From: Croceivirga sp.
Lineage (GTDB): Bacteria > Bacteroidota > Bacteroidia > Flavobacteriales > Flavobacteriaceae
NCBI GenBank assembly: GCA_028284665.1
Contig: JANQRG010000033.1
Coordinates: 124,001 to 188,000, forward strand
Reading direction: 5' to 3'
DNA length: 64,000 nucleotides
Part shown: positions 37,284-41,241 of the stretch, piece by piece
Layout of the letters: each line of letters starts with the position of its first letter
Position numbering within the stretch: position 1 is the stretch's first letter
Program-made: the position numbers and the translations under genes
The notes under the pieces: generated by a model
The model's input: the letters and a program-made list of their open reading frames with translations, nothing else
What the model was told of the DNA's origin: nothing
Database searches by the model: none

Positions 37284-37324
37284 GAAGGGCGGAGCAATGC
37301 CTATGAATTAGCTATCCGCCCTTC
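37284..37324 (-). terminator. Inverted repeat across the stop codon of the LexA-like gene
   Basis: GAAGGGCGGA (37284-37293) and TCCGCCCTTC (37315-37324) are perfect 10-bp complements with a 21-base loop. The loop includes the minus-strand stop at 37301. There is no T-run, so termination is only possible, not shown. Confidence 0.4.
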
Positions 37325-38068
37325 CACTTTTTGTTTCAACTCCTCCATAGATTCCTGCAACTGACGAAGTAATCCTTTCTCTGTGGTAGCCTCCACCCCA
37401 AAGGTCAGCTTGCTACTCACCTCCCAAATCTCTTGAATTTGAAACGGTTTAATATGATAAGGAGGATAATTTTCATTGAGAGAGATCAGTGTAATATTAT
37501 TGGAATTGGGGGGGCGTTCTATTTTTTTTACCAATACGGCGTCCTGAAGCACCACCACATACATTTTATTGGGGCTTACATGATCAATGTGCTCAATAGC
37601 GCGCGCCATTACCCAATCTCCGGGGCGTAAATTGGGGAGCATACTATCCCCTTCCACCTGGAAACCCCGATAGGTAGCATTTCGAAACTCGGGAATGGGC
37701 AAGTCAAAGGCCGGTAATTGCCTGTACCAGCTGGTATCCGCTATGTTCTGGGGATATCCCGCTGCAGCTTTGGCATTCACCAATACCATATTCTCATTAT
37801 CCGAATGATCTACTGTCACCACTTTGGGAATTACACTGGTTTTAGCGGTATCTAAGTGCTTTTCCTCACTTTCGCCGAACAACCACAACGGGTTGATGTT
37901 GAACTGCCGCAGCAATTCGGCTACCACTCTACCCGATAATTTGGTTCGGCCTCGTTCAATATCAGCGGTAGTATTGGACACCCCAAGTAATTTGGCAAAC
38001 TCTGCCTGGGTATATCCCAATTCCCGTCGAATCGCTGTAAATCGTTTTAAGGTTACTTCATTTTCCAT
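37301..38068 (-). CDS. LexA-like XRE-S24 transcriptional repressor
   Basis: The 255-residue protein has an N-terminal Cro/CI HTH (RRELGYTQAEFAKLLGVSNTTADIERGRTKLSG). The C-terminal S24 peptidase domain carries Ser142 in VEGDSMLPNLRPGDW and Lys181 in DAVLVKKIER, with an Ala103-Gly104 cleavage site in NAKAAAGYPQ. This is the self-cleaving layout of LexA, UmuD and CI. It is divergent from a DNA-repair gene set, and three inverted repeats lie between them, one inside its own promoter. Damage-induced self-cleavage and autoregulation are inferred. The HTH is XRE-type rather than LexA's winged helix. Confidence 0.87.
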   Translation of the reverse strand: MENEVTLKRFTAIRRELGYTQAEFAKLLGVSNTTADIERGRTKLSGRVVAELLRQFNINPLWLFGESEEKHLDTAKTSVIPKVVTVDHSDNENMVLVNAKAAAGYPQNIADTSWYRQLPAFDLPIPEFRNATYRGFQVEGDSMLPNLRPGDWVMARAIEHIDHVSPNKMYVVVLQDAVLVKKIERPPNSNNITLISLNENYPPYHIKPFQIQEIWEVSSKLTFGVEATTEKGLLRQLQESMEELKQKVEGRIANS

Positions 38069-38116
38069 AACAGCTTTCCTTGTCTTTTTAGGCTACTTAA
38101 ACGTCGCTTTACTCCT

Positions 38117-38145
38117 CAAATATAGTAAAATTGGAATATTTCCAA
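38117..38145 (-). promoter_or_regulatory. Promoter of the LexA-like gene
   Basis: On the minus strand, TTG (38145-38143) is followed after 18 bp by the exact -7 element TATATTTG (38124-38117). The spacer is almost entirely occupied by operator 1 (38130-38146), so occupancy would block its own promoter. Confidence 0.65.
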
Positions 38146-38184
38146 TAATTTATTGGAATATTTCCATATTTTGGAATTAATCCA
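38130..38184. promoter_or_regulatory. Three tandem inverted-repeat operators
   Basis: Site 1, 38130-38146, is ATTGGAA-TAT-TTCCAAT (perfect). Site 2, 38152-38168, shares TGGAA-TAT-TTCCA. Site 3, about 38170-38184, is a degenerate TGGAA-TTA-ATCCA. Sites 1 and 2 are 22 bp apart (about two turns) and sites 2 and 3 are 18 bp apart. They sit between the XRE-S24 repressor and the radical SAM gene, the likely position for its operators. Confidence 0.72.
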
Positions 38185-38210
38185 TATTTTTGGAGAAAAA
38201 CCAAATTGCT

Positions 38211-39473
38211 TTGAACTTTGAACGTATAAAAGAAAAGCTAAATATTTTGGCAGACGCGGCGAAATACGATGTTTCCTGTGCCAGTAGTGGCAGTAATCGC
38301 ACCAATACCAACAAAGGATTGGGGAATAGCACAGGTATGGGGATCTGTCATAGTTATACCGAAGACGGACGCTGTGTTTCCTTGTTAAAAGTCCTATTGA
38401 CCAACTATTGTATTTACGACTGTGCGTATTGTGTATCGCGACGTAGTAATGATATTCAACGCGCCGGATTCAAAATTCAGGAGGTGGTAGATCTGACCAT
38501 CAATTTTTACCGACGGAACTATATCGAGGGCTTGTTTTTGAGTTCAGGCATCTTTAAATCCCCAGACCATACTATGGAACGCTTGGTCCGTGTGGCAAAA
38601 AAACTTCGGGAGGAAGAAAACTTTAATGGCTACATCCATTTAAAATCCATTCCGGGATGCAGTGATGAACTGATGTACCAGGCCGGATTGTATGCGGACC
38701 GCCTATCGGTCAACATAGAGATCCCCACCATTTCCGGCCTAAAACTTTTAGCACCTGAAAAGGACCATAAGGATTTTACCAAACCTATGGCTAAAGTGAA
38801 AAATGAAATCGTGCGCTACAAAAATGAACGGAAAATACTCCGGAATACCCCGAAATATGCTCCTGCAGGCCAGAGTACGCAAATGATCGTCGGGGCCTCC
38901 GGGGAAAGCGACAAAGACATTATGTATTCCGCTACCTATTACTACAAAACCTATAGTATGAAGCGGGTCTACTACTCTGGCTATGTGCCCGTTATGAAGG
39001 ATAGCCGCCTTCCCTCCCTAACAGCCAAGGTGCCTATGCTACGAGAAAACAGGCTATATCAAACCGATTGGTTGTTGCGGTTCTATGGTTTTGCGGTAAA
39101 CGAAATATTGAATGACGACCATCCTAATCTGGATGTGGATATTGACCCGAAGTTATCCTGGGCCTTACGGAATCTACAGCATTTCCCGGTAAATGTGAAT
39201 ATGGCAGACAAACGAATGTTAGCCCGGGTACCAGGATTAGGTATGCAATCGGTCAGTAAGATCTTAAGTGCTCGTCGATTTCGGAAACTGAATTGGGACC
39301 ACCTGAAAAAGATCGGTGTGGCCCTCAACCGTGCAAAATACTTCCTGGTATGCGATTCTCGGGATTGGGAACGCCGGGATTTGGAAGCGGAGAAAATTAA
39401 AGGACTGATTTTACAGAATTCAACCGGTAAGTTTCGGAATCAGTACAATCAGCAATTGTCATTGTTTAATTGA
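38211..39473 (+). CDS. Putative DNA modification/repair radical SAM protein (TIGR03916-type)
   Basis: The start is TTG at 38211 (preferred, since the family begins shortly before EKLNILADAAKYDVSC and a -7 element TATTTTTG lies at 38185-38192) or TTG at 38190. It has 420 residues. The radical SAM cluster motif is CIYDCAYC (Cys67, Cys71, Cys74). The C-terminus has a helix-hairpin-helix (LARVPGLGMQSVSKILSARRF), as in DNA repair proteins. The family is known only as a co-occurring partner of TIGR03915 and UDG-domain proteins. Here it heads a unit with TIGR03915 and AlkD genes. Confidence 0.9.
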   Translation: MNFERIKEKLNILADAAKYDVSCASSGSNRTNTNKGLGNSTGMGICHSYTEDGRCVSLLKVLLTNYCIYDCAYCVSRRSNDIQRAGFKIQEVVDLTINFYRRNYIEGLFLSSGIFKSPDHTMERLVRVAKKLREEENFNGYIHLKSIPGCSDELMYQAGLYADRLSVNIEIPTISGLKLLAPEKDHKDFTKPMAKVKNEIVRYKNERKILRNTPKYAPAGQSTQMIVGASGESDKDIMYSATYYYKTYSMKRVYYSGYVPVMKDSRLPSLTAKVPMLRENRLYQTDWLLRFYGFAVNEILNDDHPNLDVDIDPKLSWALRNLQHFPVNVNMADKRMLARVPGLGMQSVSKILSARRFRKLNWDHLKKIGVALNRAKYFLVCDSRDWERRDLEAEKIKGLILQNSTGKFRNQYNQQLSLFN

Positions 39474-39496
39474 GCACAGCAAAAAACGAAAATACT

Positions 39497-39664
39497 ATGG
39501 ATGCATCTATCAAAAAAACAGGCTATTTAGAGCGAAAACGACAGGCCATTCTGGATCTAGGCTATGACTATATCAAATTCAGAAGCAGGACCAGGAAATC
39601 GTTGACCCAATTGAAAAGAATGATCATAAACAACGCCTGTCATTTTGAAAGTGCCAGCGATTAA
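39497..39664 (+). CDS. Small basic protein of unknown function
   Basis: This 55-residue open frame uses an ATG at 39497 (a TTG at 39470 would extend it to overlap the radical SAM stop by 4 bp). It is Lys/Arg-rich (KKTGYLERKRQAILDLGYDYIKFRSRTRKSLTQLKR) and lies between two genes that normally adjoin. It could be a small nucleic-acid-binding partner, but its coding status rests on position and composition only. Confidence 0.5.
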   Translation: MDASIKKTGYLERKRQAILDLGYDYIKFRSRTRKSLTQLKRMIINNACHFESASD

Positions 39665-39693
39665 GGAAGAAAACTACTAAAGCACACAGCATC

Positions 39694-40467
39694 ATGAAAA
39701 ACACCACCACATTAATTTACGACGGAAGCTTTAATGGCTTTCTCACTTCGGTTTACATCGCTTTTGAGGAAAAATTAAACGTAGCAGACATTCAAAAAAA
39801 CAGCCAGGGACAAAATGGGTTGTTTTCGGAAACTCAAACCATTTTTACCAATGTGGAAAAGGCCAAACGCGTATGGAATGGTATCCGTAACAAAAGCTAC
39901 AATACCATCAGTACCATTTATTTTGCCTTCTTAAGCGAAACCGAAGGGATTGAATACATGCTGTATACCTACATCAAAAAATTCATGGCCCATAAGGGAA
40001 AACAGGCCGACTTTTCCGATGACACCATACTCTACATTGCACAATTGGCACGAAAAGTAGGACGTGAAAAGCATCGGATGGAGGCCTTTGTGCGTTTTCA
40101 GTTGACCAAGGACAATATCTATTTTGCCAATATTGAGCCGGACTTTAATGTGCTGCCGTTGATCTCAAAACATTTCCGGAACCGCTATGCGGATCAACAA
40201 TGGTTGATTTATGACGTAAAGCGGCGTTATGGTATCTATTATAATCTGGAAGGGGTGGAAATCGTTTCACTAAACCTGGATGAAATTCACTTTAATCGTA
40301 CCCGGAGAAGTAAGGCATTTACTGATGGCGAATACGATTACCAAACCTTATGGAACAATTACTTCAAAAGTACCCATATTACATCCCGGATAAATCGAAA
40401 ATTGCACACCCAACATATCCCGAAACGGTATTGGAAGTACCTTAGCGAGAAGAAGGAAGCGGTGTAA
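39694..40467 (+). CDS. TIGR03915-family putative DNA repair protein
   Basis: The 257-residue protein begins with the family pattern LIYDGSFNGFLTSVYIAFEE. It includes VEKAKRVWNGI and the C-terminal DYQTLWNNYFKSTHITSRINRKLHTQHIPKRYWKYL. In many bacteria the corresponding protein is fused or adjacent to a uracil-DNA-glycosylase-like domain (TIGR03914); none is visible here. It sits directly behind the radical SAM partner, 29 bp after the small ORF, and 3 bp before alkD. The biochemical role is unknown. Confidence 0.88.
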   Translation: MKNTTTLIYDGSFNGFLTSVYIAFEEKLNVADIQKNSQGQNGLFSETQTIFTNVEKAKRVWNGIRNKSYNTISTIYFAFLSETEGIEYMLYTYIKKFMAHKGKQADFSDDTILYIAQLARKVGREKHRMEAFVRFQLTKDNIYFANIEPDFNVLPLISKHFRNRYADQQWLIYDVKRRYGIYYNLEGVEIVSLNLDEIHFNRTRRSKAFTDGEYDYQTLWNNYFKSTHITSRINRKLHTQHIPKRYWKYLSEKKEAV

Positions 40468-40470
40468 ATT

Positions 40471-41241
40471 ATGGCCTACAAGCAATTAAAACTTTGGTTT
40501 GACGGCGATCTGGCCGTCCTCTTGGCAGATAAGCTTATTGCTGTTGACGTCAACATAGACAAAGATGCTTTTGTGCATATCGCCACTCAGGAGCTTGAGG
40601 ATCTGGAACTGAAAGCCCGTGTGGAACATATCGCCGAAGCCTTATGGCAGCATTTACCTTTTCCCTACGAAGAAACCGTTTCAAAATTGGTGGCGATCCT
40701 TGGACCCGAAAACGAAAAGGAAACCGGGATGTTCAAGGAATACTATTGGGTAATGCCTATCGCCAAGCTGGTGGAAAAGTATGGGTTGGACTGTTTTGAA
40801 CGCTCAATAAACGCCATTTATGAAATCACCAAGCGAAATACCGGGGAATATACCATTCGTCCCTATTTGGAAAAGTATCCCATAAAAACCCTTGAGGTGA
40901 TGCTCCAATGGTCGAGGGACACCAACAAACATGTGCGCCGTTTATCCAGCGAGGGCGTGCGCCCAAGACTGCCCTGGGCATCAAAATTAGACCAATTTAT
41001 TCAGGACCCTTCCCCTATTCTACCGATTTTAGATAACCTCAAGGATGACCCCAGCAAGTATGTCCAAAAATCAGTGGCGAACTGTATCAACGATATTTTA
41101 AAGGACAATTTGGAAATTGGGAAACGACTTATCGAAGACTGGGTGCCTGATGCCACAAAAGAACGGTGGTGGATCATCAAACACGCCTTGCGGAATTTGG
41201 TCAAGGCCGATGATGGGTGGGCAAAAACAATTTTATCTTAA
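40471..41241 (+). CDS. DNA alkylation repair protein, AlkD-like
   Basis: This 256-residue protein is a HEAT-like repeat (ALK) glycosylase. HVRRLSSEGVRPRLPWASKL is the signature of the AlkD/AlkC family, and the helical repeats continue to VPDATKERWWIIKHALRNLVK. Family members excise cationic N3- and N7-alkylpurines without flipping the base. It is the last gene of the repair module, 3 bp behind the TIGR03915 gene, and may take the glycosylase place filled elsewhere by UDG-domain partners. Confidence 0.88.
   Translation: MAYKQLKLWFDGDLAVLLADKLIAVDVNIDKDAFVHIATQELEDLELKARVEHIAEALWQHLPFPYEETVSKLVAILGPENEKETGMFKEYYWVMPIAKLVEKYGLDCFERSINAIYEITKRNTGEYTIRPYLEKYPIKTLEVMLQWSRDTNKHVRRLSSEGVRPRLPWASKLDQFIQDPSPILPILDNLKDDPSKYVQKSVANCINDILKDNLEIGKRLIEDWVPDATKERWWIIKHALRNLVKADDGWAKTILS

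Follow-up and report, generated by a model that had tools for sequence, protein, structure and literature searches.

We analysed a 64,000-nucleotide stretch of Croceivirga sp. (Flavobacteriaceae; assembly GCA_028284665.1, contig JANQRG010000033.1, positions 124,001 to 188,000), hereafter the window, in which a gene for an S24-type repressor stands divergent from a run of genes in the order radical S-adenosylmethionine (SAM) protein, microprotein, DUF4130 protein and AlkC. We read this locus as an SOS module of a kind already described, to which AlkC has been added and whose radical SAM/DUF4130 pair is probably tethered to the beta sliding clamp, and put the probability of this reading at roughly 80%. 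The features are given below by window position.

37301..38068, minus strand: non-canonical LexA-type repressor, XRE/CI-type helix-turn-helix (HTH) plus S24 peptidase (open reading frame (ORF), Pfam and alignment; published family)
38117..38124, minus strand: probable -7 box of the repressor gene (TATATTTG, read on the minus strand; conserved placement and a promoter motif known beforehand)
38133..38143, no strand: operator 1, GGAATATTTCC (site scans and spacing across loci)
38155..38165, no strand: operator 2, GGAATATTTCC (site scans and spacing across loci)
38173..38183, no strand: operator 3, GGAATTAATCC (site scans and spacing across loci)
38185..38192, plus strand: probable -7 box of the radical SAM operon (TATTTTTG; conserved placement and the same promoter motif)
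38211..39473, plus strand: TIGR03916 radical SAM protein with a C-terminal helix-hairpin-helix (HhH) region (profiles; longest ORF from 38190)
39453..39467, plus strand: C-terminal QLSLF, the beta-sliding-clamp-binding consensus (motif survey)
39497..39664, plus strand: 55-amino-acid basic microprotein with core LERKRQAILDLGYDYIKFRSRTRKSL, without a family name (profile and dN/dS; longest ORF from 39470)
39694..40467, plus strand: DUF4130/TIGR03915 protein, unfused, without a uracil-DNA glycosylase (UDG) domain (profiles, length survey and fold model)
40471..41241, plus strand: AlkC-type HEAT-like-repeat glycosylase without a C-terminal extension (profile and PDB comparisons)

The regulator ORF matched both HTH_3 (PF01381) and Peptidase_S24 in Pfam, and its Ala-Gly (AAAGYP), Ser (EGDSM) and Lys (VKK or IKK) were unchanged in all 19 aligned sequences (the window sequence and 18 others), which bears out the original prediction of an S24-XRE protein with an Ala-Gly site and a Ser-Lys dyad. 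The divergent unit that it described also stood as regards the radical SAM protein, the small ORF and the TIGR03915 protein, while the DNA_alkylation-family protein that it called AlkD is an AlkC. In what follows we take COG4277 to be the COG of TIGR03916. In the parts available to us, PMC8565304 describes control of the SOS response in Bacteroidetes by a family of CI-like S24 repressors, one group of which, mainly from Flavobacteriaceae, binds GGA-N5-TCC and was tested in S. agarivorans by electrophoretic mobility shift assay and by RT-qPCR with mitomycin. The regulon predicted there includes splB (COG1533), a COG1573-COG4277 operon and dinB, which is frequently accompanied by a DNA polymerase III alpha gene. 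Judged by every feature that its sequence allows to be tested, the window repressor matches this published non-canonical LexA of Flavobacteriaceae, and the system can no longer be called undescribed, as it had been, since regulator family, motif and COG4277 operon already appear in those parts of PMC8565304. By analogy, DNA damage is expected to bring about cleavage of the repressor, which would control this operon.

We surveyed 149 Flavobacteriaceae genomes, one per genus, and found S24 orthologues (E ≤ 1e-69) in 54 of them, comprising 24/33 genomes with the radical SAM gene and 30/116 without it. The window genome has only two S24-domain ORFs, the repressor and the C-terminal domain of a long ORF; the latter, an ATPase-looking ORF (L012:1-1932, contig C43), has a GGA-N5-TCC-like site inside the gene. 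A defence system was considered and rejected, as four of the five proteins had no PADLOC match and the regulator matched at the HTH level only (HTH_VI 2.3e-5, capH 0.0011).

GGA-N5-TCC sites of any core numbered 24 in the window, and the sites with an all-A/T core (GGA-W5-TCC palindromes) numbered three, all in the divergent spacer, with 0.67 expected from base composition. These three, at 38133, 38155 and 38173, confirm the tandem inverted repeats that had been reported between the genes. Spacer geometry was compared across 91 pooled loci (the window, 10 congeners and 80 loci from genome contigs), 55 of which had a divergent S24 gene and at least two sites. Within these 55, operators followed each other at steps of 22/23, 18 and sometimes 23 bp in 51 loci, with one 42-bp step instead in four Aquimarina loci; a CAAANNTA box lay 16-17 bp left of the first operator in 54, and a TANNTTTG box lay right of operator 1 in all 55, beginning 12 bp past the start of operator 3 in 51/51 loci with three or four sites. 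CAAANNTA is the TAnnTTTG -7 element on the opposite strand. This geometry is as expected for a repressor that closes two divergent promoters. Among the 77 contig loci with a radical SAM match and sufficient upstream sequence, at least two sites within 400 bp were present in 38/42 loci with a divergent S24 gene versus 4/35 without, and one of the latter four (L170) does have an S24 gene, which the script did not count as adjacent. Loci L051 and L053 carry GGA-N5-TCC-like sites upstream of the radical SAM gene though S24 is not adjacent; their genomes (G100 and G087) have S24 orthologues at other positions. Scans for sigma-70 promoters (12 vs 9.4 in shuffles, standard deviation 3.3) and terminators (7 vs 5.0, standard deviation 2.2) stayed near shuffle level. 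A CTAA-N5-TTAG motif, seen ahead of the radical SAM gene at L083, L089 and L095, three loci from the same class (loci in reverse orientation were not properly scanned), was not found in the window spacer.

The radical SAM protein scored 670 bits against TIGR03916 (cut-off 343.5), and its HhH match fell below the cut-off of that profile. TTG 38211 is its probable start, because relatives begin there and the alternative at 38190 falls within the conserved -7 box. TIGR03916 occurred in 33 of the 149 survey genomes; at the other 32 loci DUF4130 follows in 31 and an S24 orthologue is present in 18, while in the genus of the window the radical SAM gene, divergent S24 gene and sites occurred together in 11/11 genomes. 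The protein ends in ...QQLSLFN, and a C-terminal QLxLF is the beta-clamp-binding consensus according to the part of PMC4549789 available to us. Counting QLxLF when it fell within the last 16 residues, we found it in 33/33 genera (one genome per genus), in 76 of 77 scored contig loci (three of the 80 lack a complete ORF) and in 140/148 sequences of a pooled, redundant set, the eight exceptions being QMNLF, QLSLL (twice), QISLL, QLTLL, QMLLF, QLTLW and QLQLTF. None of 336 other long ORFs of the loci ended in this way. Eight distant homologues chosen from 15 records all had the tail motif or a variant, with strict QLxLF in four: QLSLF in Spirosoma, Pusillibacter and Thioclava and QLKLF in Fusobacterium, next to QLSIF in Acetoanaerobium (15 residues from the end), QLSLI in Caballeronia, QLSLGF in Acinetobacter and QLLLDF in Bacteroides. 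A literature search (TIGR03915, TIGR03916, COG4277 and PF13566, and radical SAM with sliding clamp) returned no clamp link among the matches listed, and the putative clamp tag on TIGR03916 radical SAM proteins appears to be new. Cysteines 30, 53, 62 and 388, outside the CxxxCxxC motif, were invariant in 37/37 sequences and may hold a second iron-sulphur cluster.

The DUF4130 protein matched TIGR03915/DUF4130 at 262 bits, and a profile search detected no UDG domain in it. Across the 91 loci, nearly all from Flavobacteriaceae, the DUF4130 ORF spanned 250-269 codons from match start to stop in 90, and therefore had no room for a C-terminal UDG; the 91st was cut by its contig. These UDG-less loci include four from Salegentibacter, presumably the genus of the species tested in the lexA paper. 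Longer ORFs occurred in Thioclava (526 amino acids, annotated UdgX) and Caballeronia (536 amino acids), and two UDG-family genes lie elsewhere in the window genome. By gene content, the window operon is a UDG-less variant of the COG1573-COG4277 operon, and both the published 'UDG' label and the original idea that AlkD replaces UDG appear not to fit the flavobacterial gene, because DUF4130 is unfused in 90/91 loci.

DUF4130 was also found apart from the radical SAM gene. We viewed all 13 loci in radical-SAM-less genomes whose S24 protein was at least 72% identical, and in 11 of them DUF4130 stood divergent from S24, across the same kind of operators, with no radical SAM match in the locus; in three viewed of the remaining 17 radical-SAM-less genomes with S24 there was no DUF4130 beside it. 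Muricauda sp. CP2A (L175) likewise has DUF4130 without a radical SAM gene in its 10-kb locus. DUF4130 is probably the core activity of the module, because it is under the same control in relatives that lack the radical SAM gene. Its structure model had a mean predicted local distance difference test (pLDDT) score of 79.9, was weak at the C-terminus and matched PAP phosphatase 8a8k best (E 9.1e-4, the sole PDB match below 1e-3), an enzyme that we take to be DHH-type. The first nine PDB matches comprised PAP phosphatase (two chains), a DHH-domain protein, CDC45 and five RecJ/RecJ2 entries at template modelling scores of 0.25-0.42, and a PDB sequence search with DUF4130 gave no match, such that a DHH/RecJ-like fold is a lead only. 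In the part of PMC3765255 available to us, a figure legend presents DUF4130 as an enzyme with a predicted role in mutagenesis and links it to UDGs and SplB-like radical SAM proteins. Our full-text literature searches turned up this one paper that names DUF4130 and one that names COG4277, and found no chemistry for the radical SAM/DUF4130 pair.

Two kinds of microprotein accompany the module. The small ORF of the window is real, as profile and substitution data indicate, and its start is probably ATG 39497. A profile of 11 sequences from one genome group was run on 17,749 ORFs, and its 18 best matches all lay in the radical SAM-DUF4130 gap; eight were training sequences or copies of them and ten were not; the ten include Maribacter members with E values of 2e-7 to 2e-4, and one with 0.001, while the gap ORF of L203 reached E 0.051. 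dN/dS was 0.07-0.17 in 4/15 pairs, dS being saturated in the other 11. In the 149 genomes there were three strong matches, all in the operon and all rows of the query alignment, and three weak ones elsewhere (E 3.5e-4 to 0.0099), and Pfam, PHROGs and NCBIfam gave nothing convincing for this microprotein (best 0.0017, for one member).

A second family, absent from the window, consists of 53-62-amino-acid proteins with a mostly basic middle and a C-terminal QLxLF, encoded between the operators and DUF4130 in 7/11 radical-SAM-less loci. Its members (L287-L289, L291, L292, L294, L296, L210, L096 and L097) are the first gene past the operators. Seven of 3,168 distinct ORFs of 45-75 amino acids in loci of at least 5 kb ended in QLxLF, all at this operator-side place, including the microprotein ahead of the radical SAM gene in Zeaxanthinibacter L210; L291 fell outside the length filter. 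The copy in the congener L097, outside the profile, was found at E 2.4e-10. With the tail removed and each member left out in turn, five of eight QLxLF microproteins beat all 200 shuffles, and the others were reached by 4, 3 and 14 shuffles. Between L096 and L097, 15 of the N-terminal 18 residues, 5 of the middle 28 and 5 of the last 7 were shared (dN 0.43, dS saturated). That these microproteins arose from the radical SAM gene by internal deletion was rejected, as their N-terminal similarity to it was not significant (L294 scored 7.1 bits at E 0.47 against a best shuffle of 6.4), and is also countered by the coexistence of microprotein and radical SAM gene in L096/L210 and L097.

We then asked where else the boxes occur in the window genome. 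A tandem-site pattern, with 6-14 bp between two sites, matched 12 times at 7 separate places, 4 of them inside ORFs, and AT-cored tandem sites preceded genes at three places: the spacer, a DinB-DnaE operon (contig C26) and a PA0069-family radical SAM gene (contig C37). The strict site pattern matched 10 times, at 9 places, with three here and one at the PA0069 promoter; the remaining places gave no wider regulon, lying inside ORFs as called, except for one on C50, where the site falls at an ORF end and the next ORF starts 16 bases on. No promoter box was found at the second Y-polymerase or at either UDG-family locus of the genome. The PA0069-family (SplB-type) gene, L008:1484-2592, has two SOS boxes and a C-terminal QLRLF, and its product is a probable second clamp-tagged SOS radical SAM enzyme of the window genome.

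The last gene was compared with known glycosylases. AlkC chains 5vi0 and 5vhv matched it at E 5e-39 (residues 7-254 and 10-254), while the best AlkD-type chain, AlkD2, reached E 1.5e-8 over residues 139-227, and an identity as AlkD was rejected on this difference. At 256 amino acids it is shorter than known AlkC (361-369), the alignment stopping at residue 252 of 369. Glutamates 126 and 161 aligned with E121 and E156 of known AlkC, which we take to be the catalytic ones. The N-terminus of operon AlkC (window 40471-40510) reads KQLKLWF or KQLKLYF in 13/13 rows, two of them from the same contig; this start is compatible with a hexapeptide clamp motif, though its role may be structural, and one non-operon AlkC carries a stretch similar to QLKLWF. 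A partial AlkC-like ORF lies on the opposite strand at the edge of L078, a locus from another family of the order.

The locus could alternatively be an operon devoted to alkylation damage, with an alkylpurine glycosylase in place of UDG. AlkC does begin 3 bases past the DUF4130 stop codon, and it stands in line in 7/11 genomes of the genus and in 7/80 contig loci (two Allomuricauda, two Flagellimonas, two Ulvibacterium and one metagenome-assembled genome). AlkC and DUF4130 also co-diverge: their identities correlate at r 0.84 across 14 loci (L149 and L169 being one and the same contig), which suggests that AlkC has long belonged to the operon in these genera, though it is often absent. Against this explanation, the gene-neighbourhood comparison across flavobacteria that had been proposed showed the radical SAM-DUF4130 pair to be kept (31/32) but no AlkC at the other 32 one-per-genus survey loci (0/32), and AlkC-like genes were not tied to the module, occurring in 3/33 genomes with the radical SAM gene versus 13/116 without. 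Substitution for UDG was rejected, since UDG is absent from the unfused DUF4130 gene with or without AlkC and two UDG-family genes lie elsewhere in the genome. The original claim that the glycosylase replaces UDG is thus not upheld, and we regard a dedicated alkylation operon as improbable. Even less credible is that the S24 protein regulates locally in response to a signal other than DNA damage, or is left over from a phage repressor: the N-terminal HTH is of CI type, but the boxes are shared with dinB-dnaE and PA0069, control by DNA damage is published for the repressor family (PMC8565304, in the parts available), orthologues occur in 54 of the 149 genomes of the family, including 30 that lack the radical SAM gene, and the genome has just one S24-domain ORF besides the repressor.

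We also considered that the C-terminal QLxLF serves a structural or other contact and is not a clamp tag. One Clostridia homologue has the motif 15 residues from the end, and some homologues carry QLSLL, QISLL or QLTLW; otherwise, it lies at or a few residues from the end across Bacteroidota, Bacillota, Fusobacteriota and Pseudomonadota, and the same ending recurs in an SOS microprotein and in a second, distinct family of SOS radical SAM proteins, so that this explanation seems unlikely, if clearly less so than the previous two. Several observations weigh against an SOS-controlled, clamp-tethered module. QLxLF is a short motif from which we infer clamp binding by the radical SAM protein, and the structure model of that protein was poor (pLDDT 60), with confidence for residues ~290 to 400, where the HhH match lies, but not for the final 15. 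The radical SAM/DUF4130 pair lacked a divergent S24 gene in 35/77 contig loci, and control is therefore not universal. Neither recA nor its promoter was located in the window genome, the gap ahead of AlkC measured 108-132 bp in three congeners, making co-transcription an assumption, and the contig and whole-genome loci overlap (at least three shared genomes), so that counts are not fully independent.

Under the SOS reading, RecA filaments would trigger cleavage of the repressor at Ala-Gly, upon which both divergent promoters would open. The QLSLF tail, bound to the beta clamp, would bring the radical SAM protein to stalled or gapped forks, there to act on a lesion jointly with DUF4130; AlkC, a lineage-specific addition, would excise alkylated bases. 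More tentatively, and at somewhat less than even odds, flavobacterial SOS may run a clamp-tethered lesion-processing complex in which TIGR03916 (across phyla) and PA0069-type enzymes are delivered to the fork by QLxLF with DUF4130 as both partner and core activity; where the radical SAM gene is missing, an SOS clamp-tagged microprotein with a basic middle would often replace it, as DUF4130 adaptor or as replication brake. What is new here is the putative clamp tag, the occurrence of DUF4130 on its own, the addition of AlkC, the microproteins and the fixed spacing of operators and promoter boxes. The radical SAM/DUF4130 pair occurs in several phyla and is predicted to act in DNA repair or modification; the clamp tag, rigid SOS control, lone DUF4130 and SOS microproteins would make its chemistry directly testable, at the fork and with DUF4130 first.

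Among known systems, SocB-type clamp-binding small proteins, as the available part of PMC9690074 describes them, have small size and the usual clamp-binding motif in common with the QLxLF microproteins, which differ in being SOS-boxed genes of relatives beside DUF4130. The glycosylase matches the N-terminal domain of AlkC (PDB 5vi0 and 5vhv) at full length, and differs in having no C-terminal extension and in standing in an SOS operon. Comparison with the published operon depends on our assumed equation of COG4277 with TIGR03916. With the COG1573-COG4277 'UDG base excision repair' SOS operon, as given in the accessible parts of PMC8565304, the window shares a radical SAM gene followed by a TIGR03915-containing gene and LexA-type control; its second gene, however, lacks UDG, a microprotein fills the gap and AlkC is appended. 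The GGA-N5-TCC LexA group of the same parts of PMC8565304 shares with the window repressor the CI-type HTH with S24, Ala-Gly and Ser-Lys, operators in its own promoter and its occurrence in Flavobacteriaceae, and its boxes at dinB-dnaE, splB and the COG4277 operon resemble those of the window genome. The window differs from that group in that its repressor is divergent from the radical SAM operon across three sites at fixed spacing, in that the repressor faces DUF4130 alone in some relatives, and in that the tandem pattern gave only three boxed promoters in its genome.

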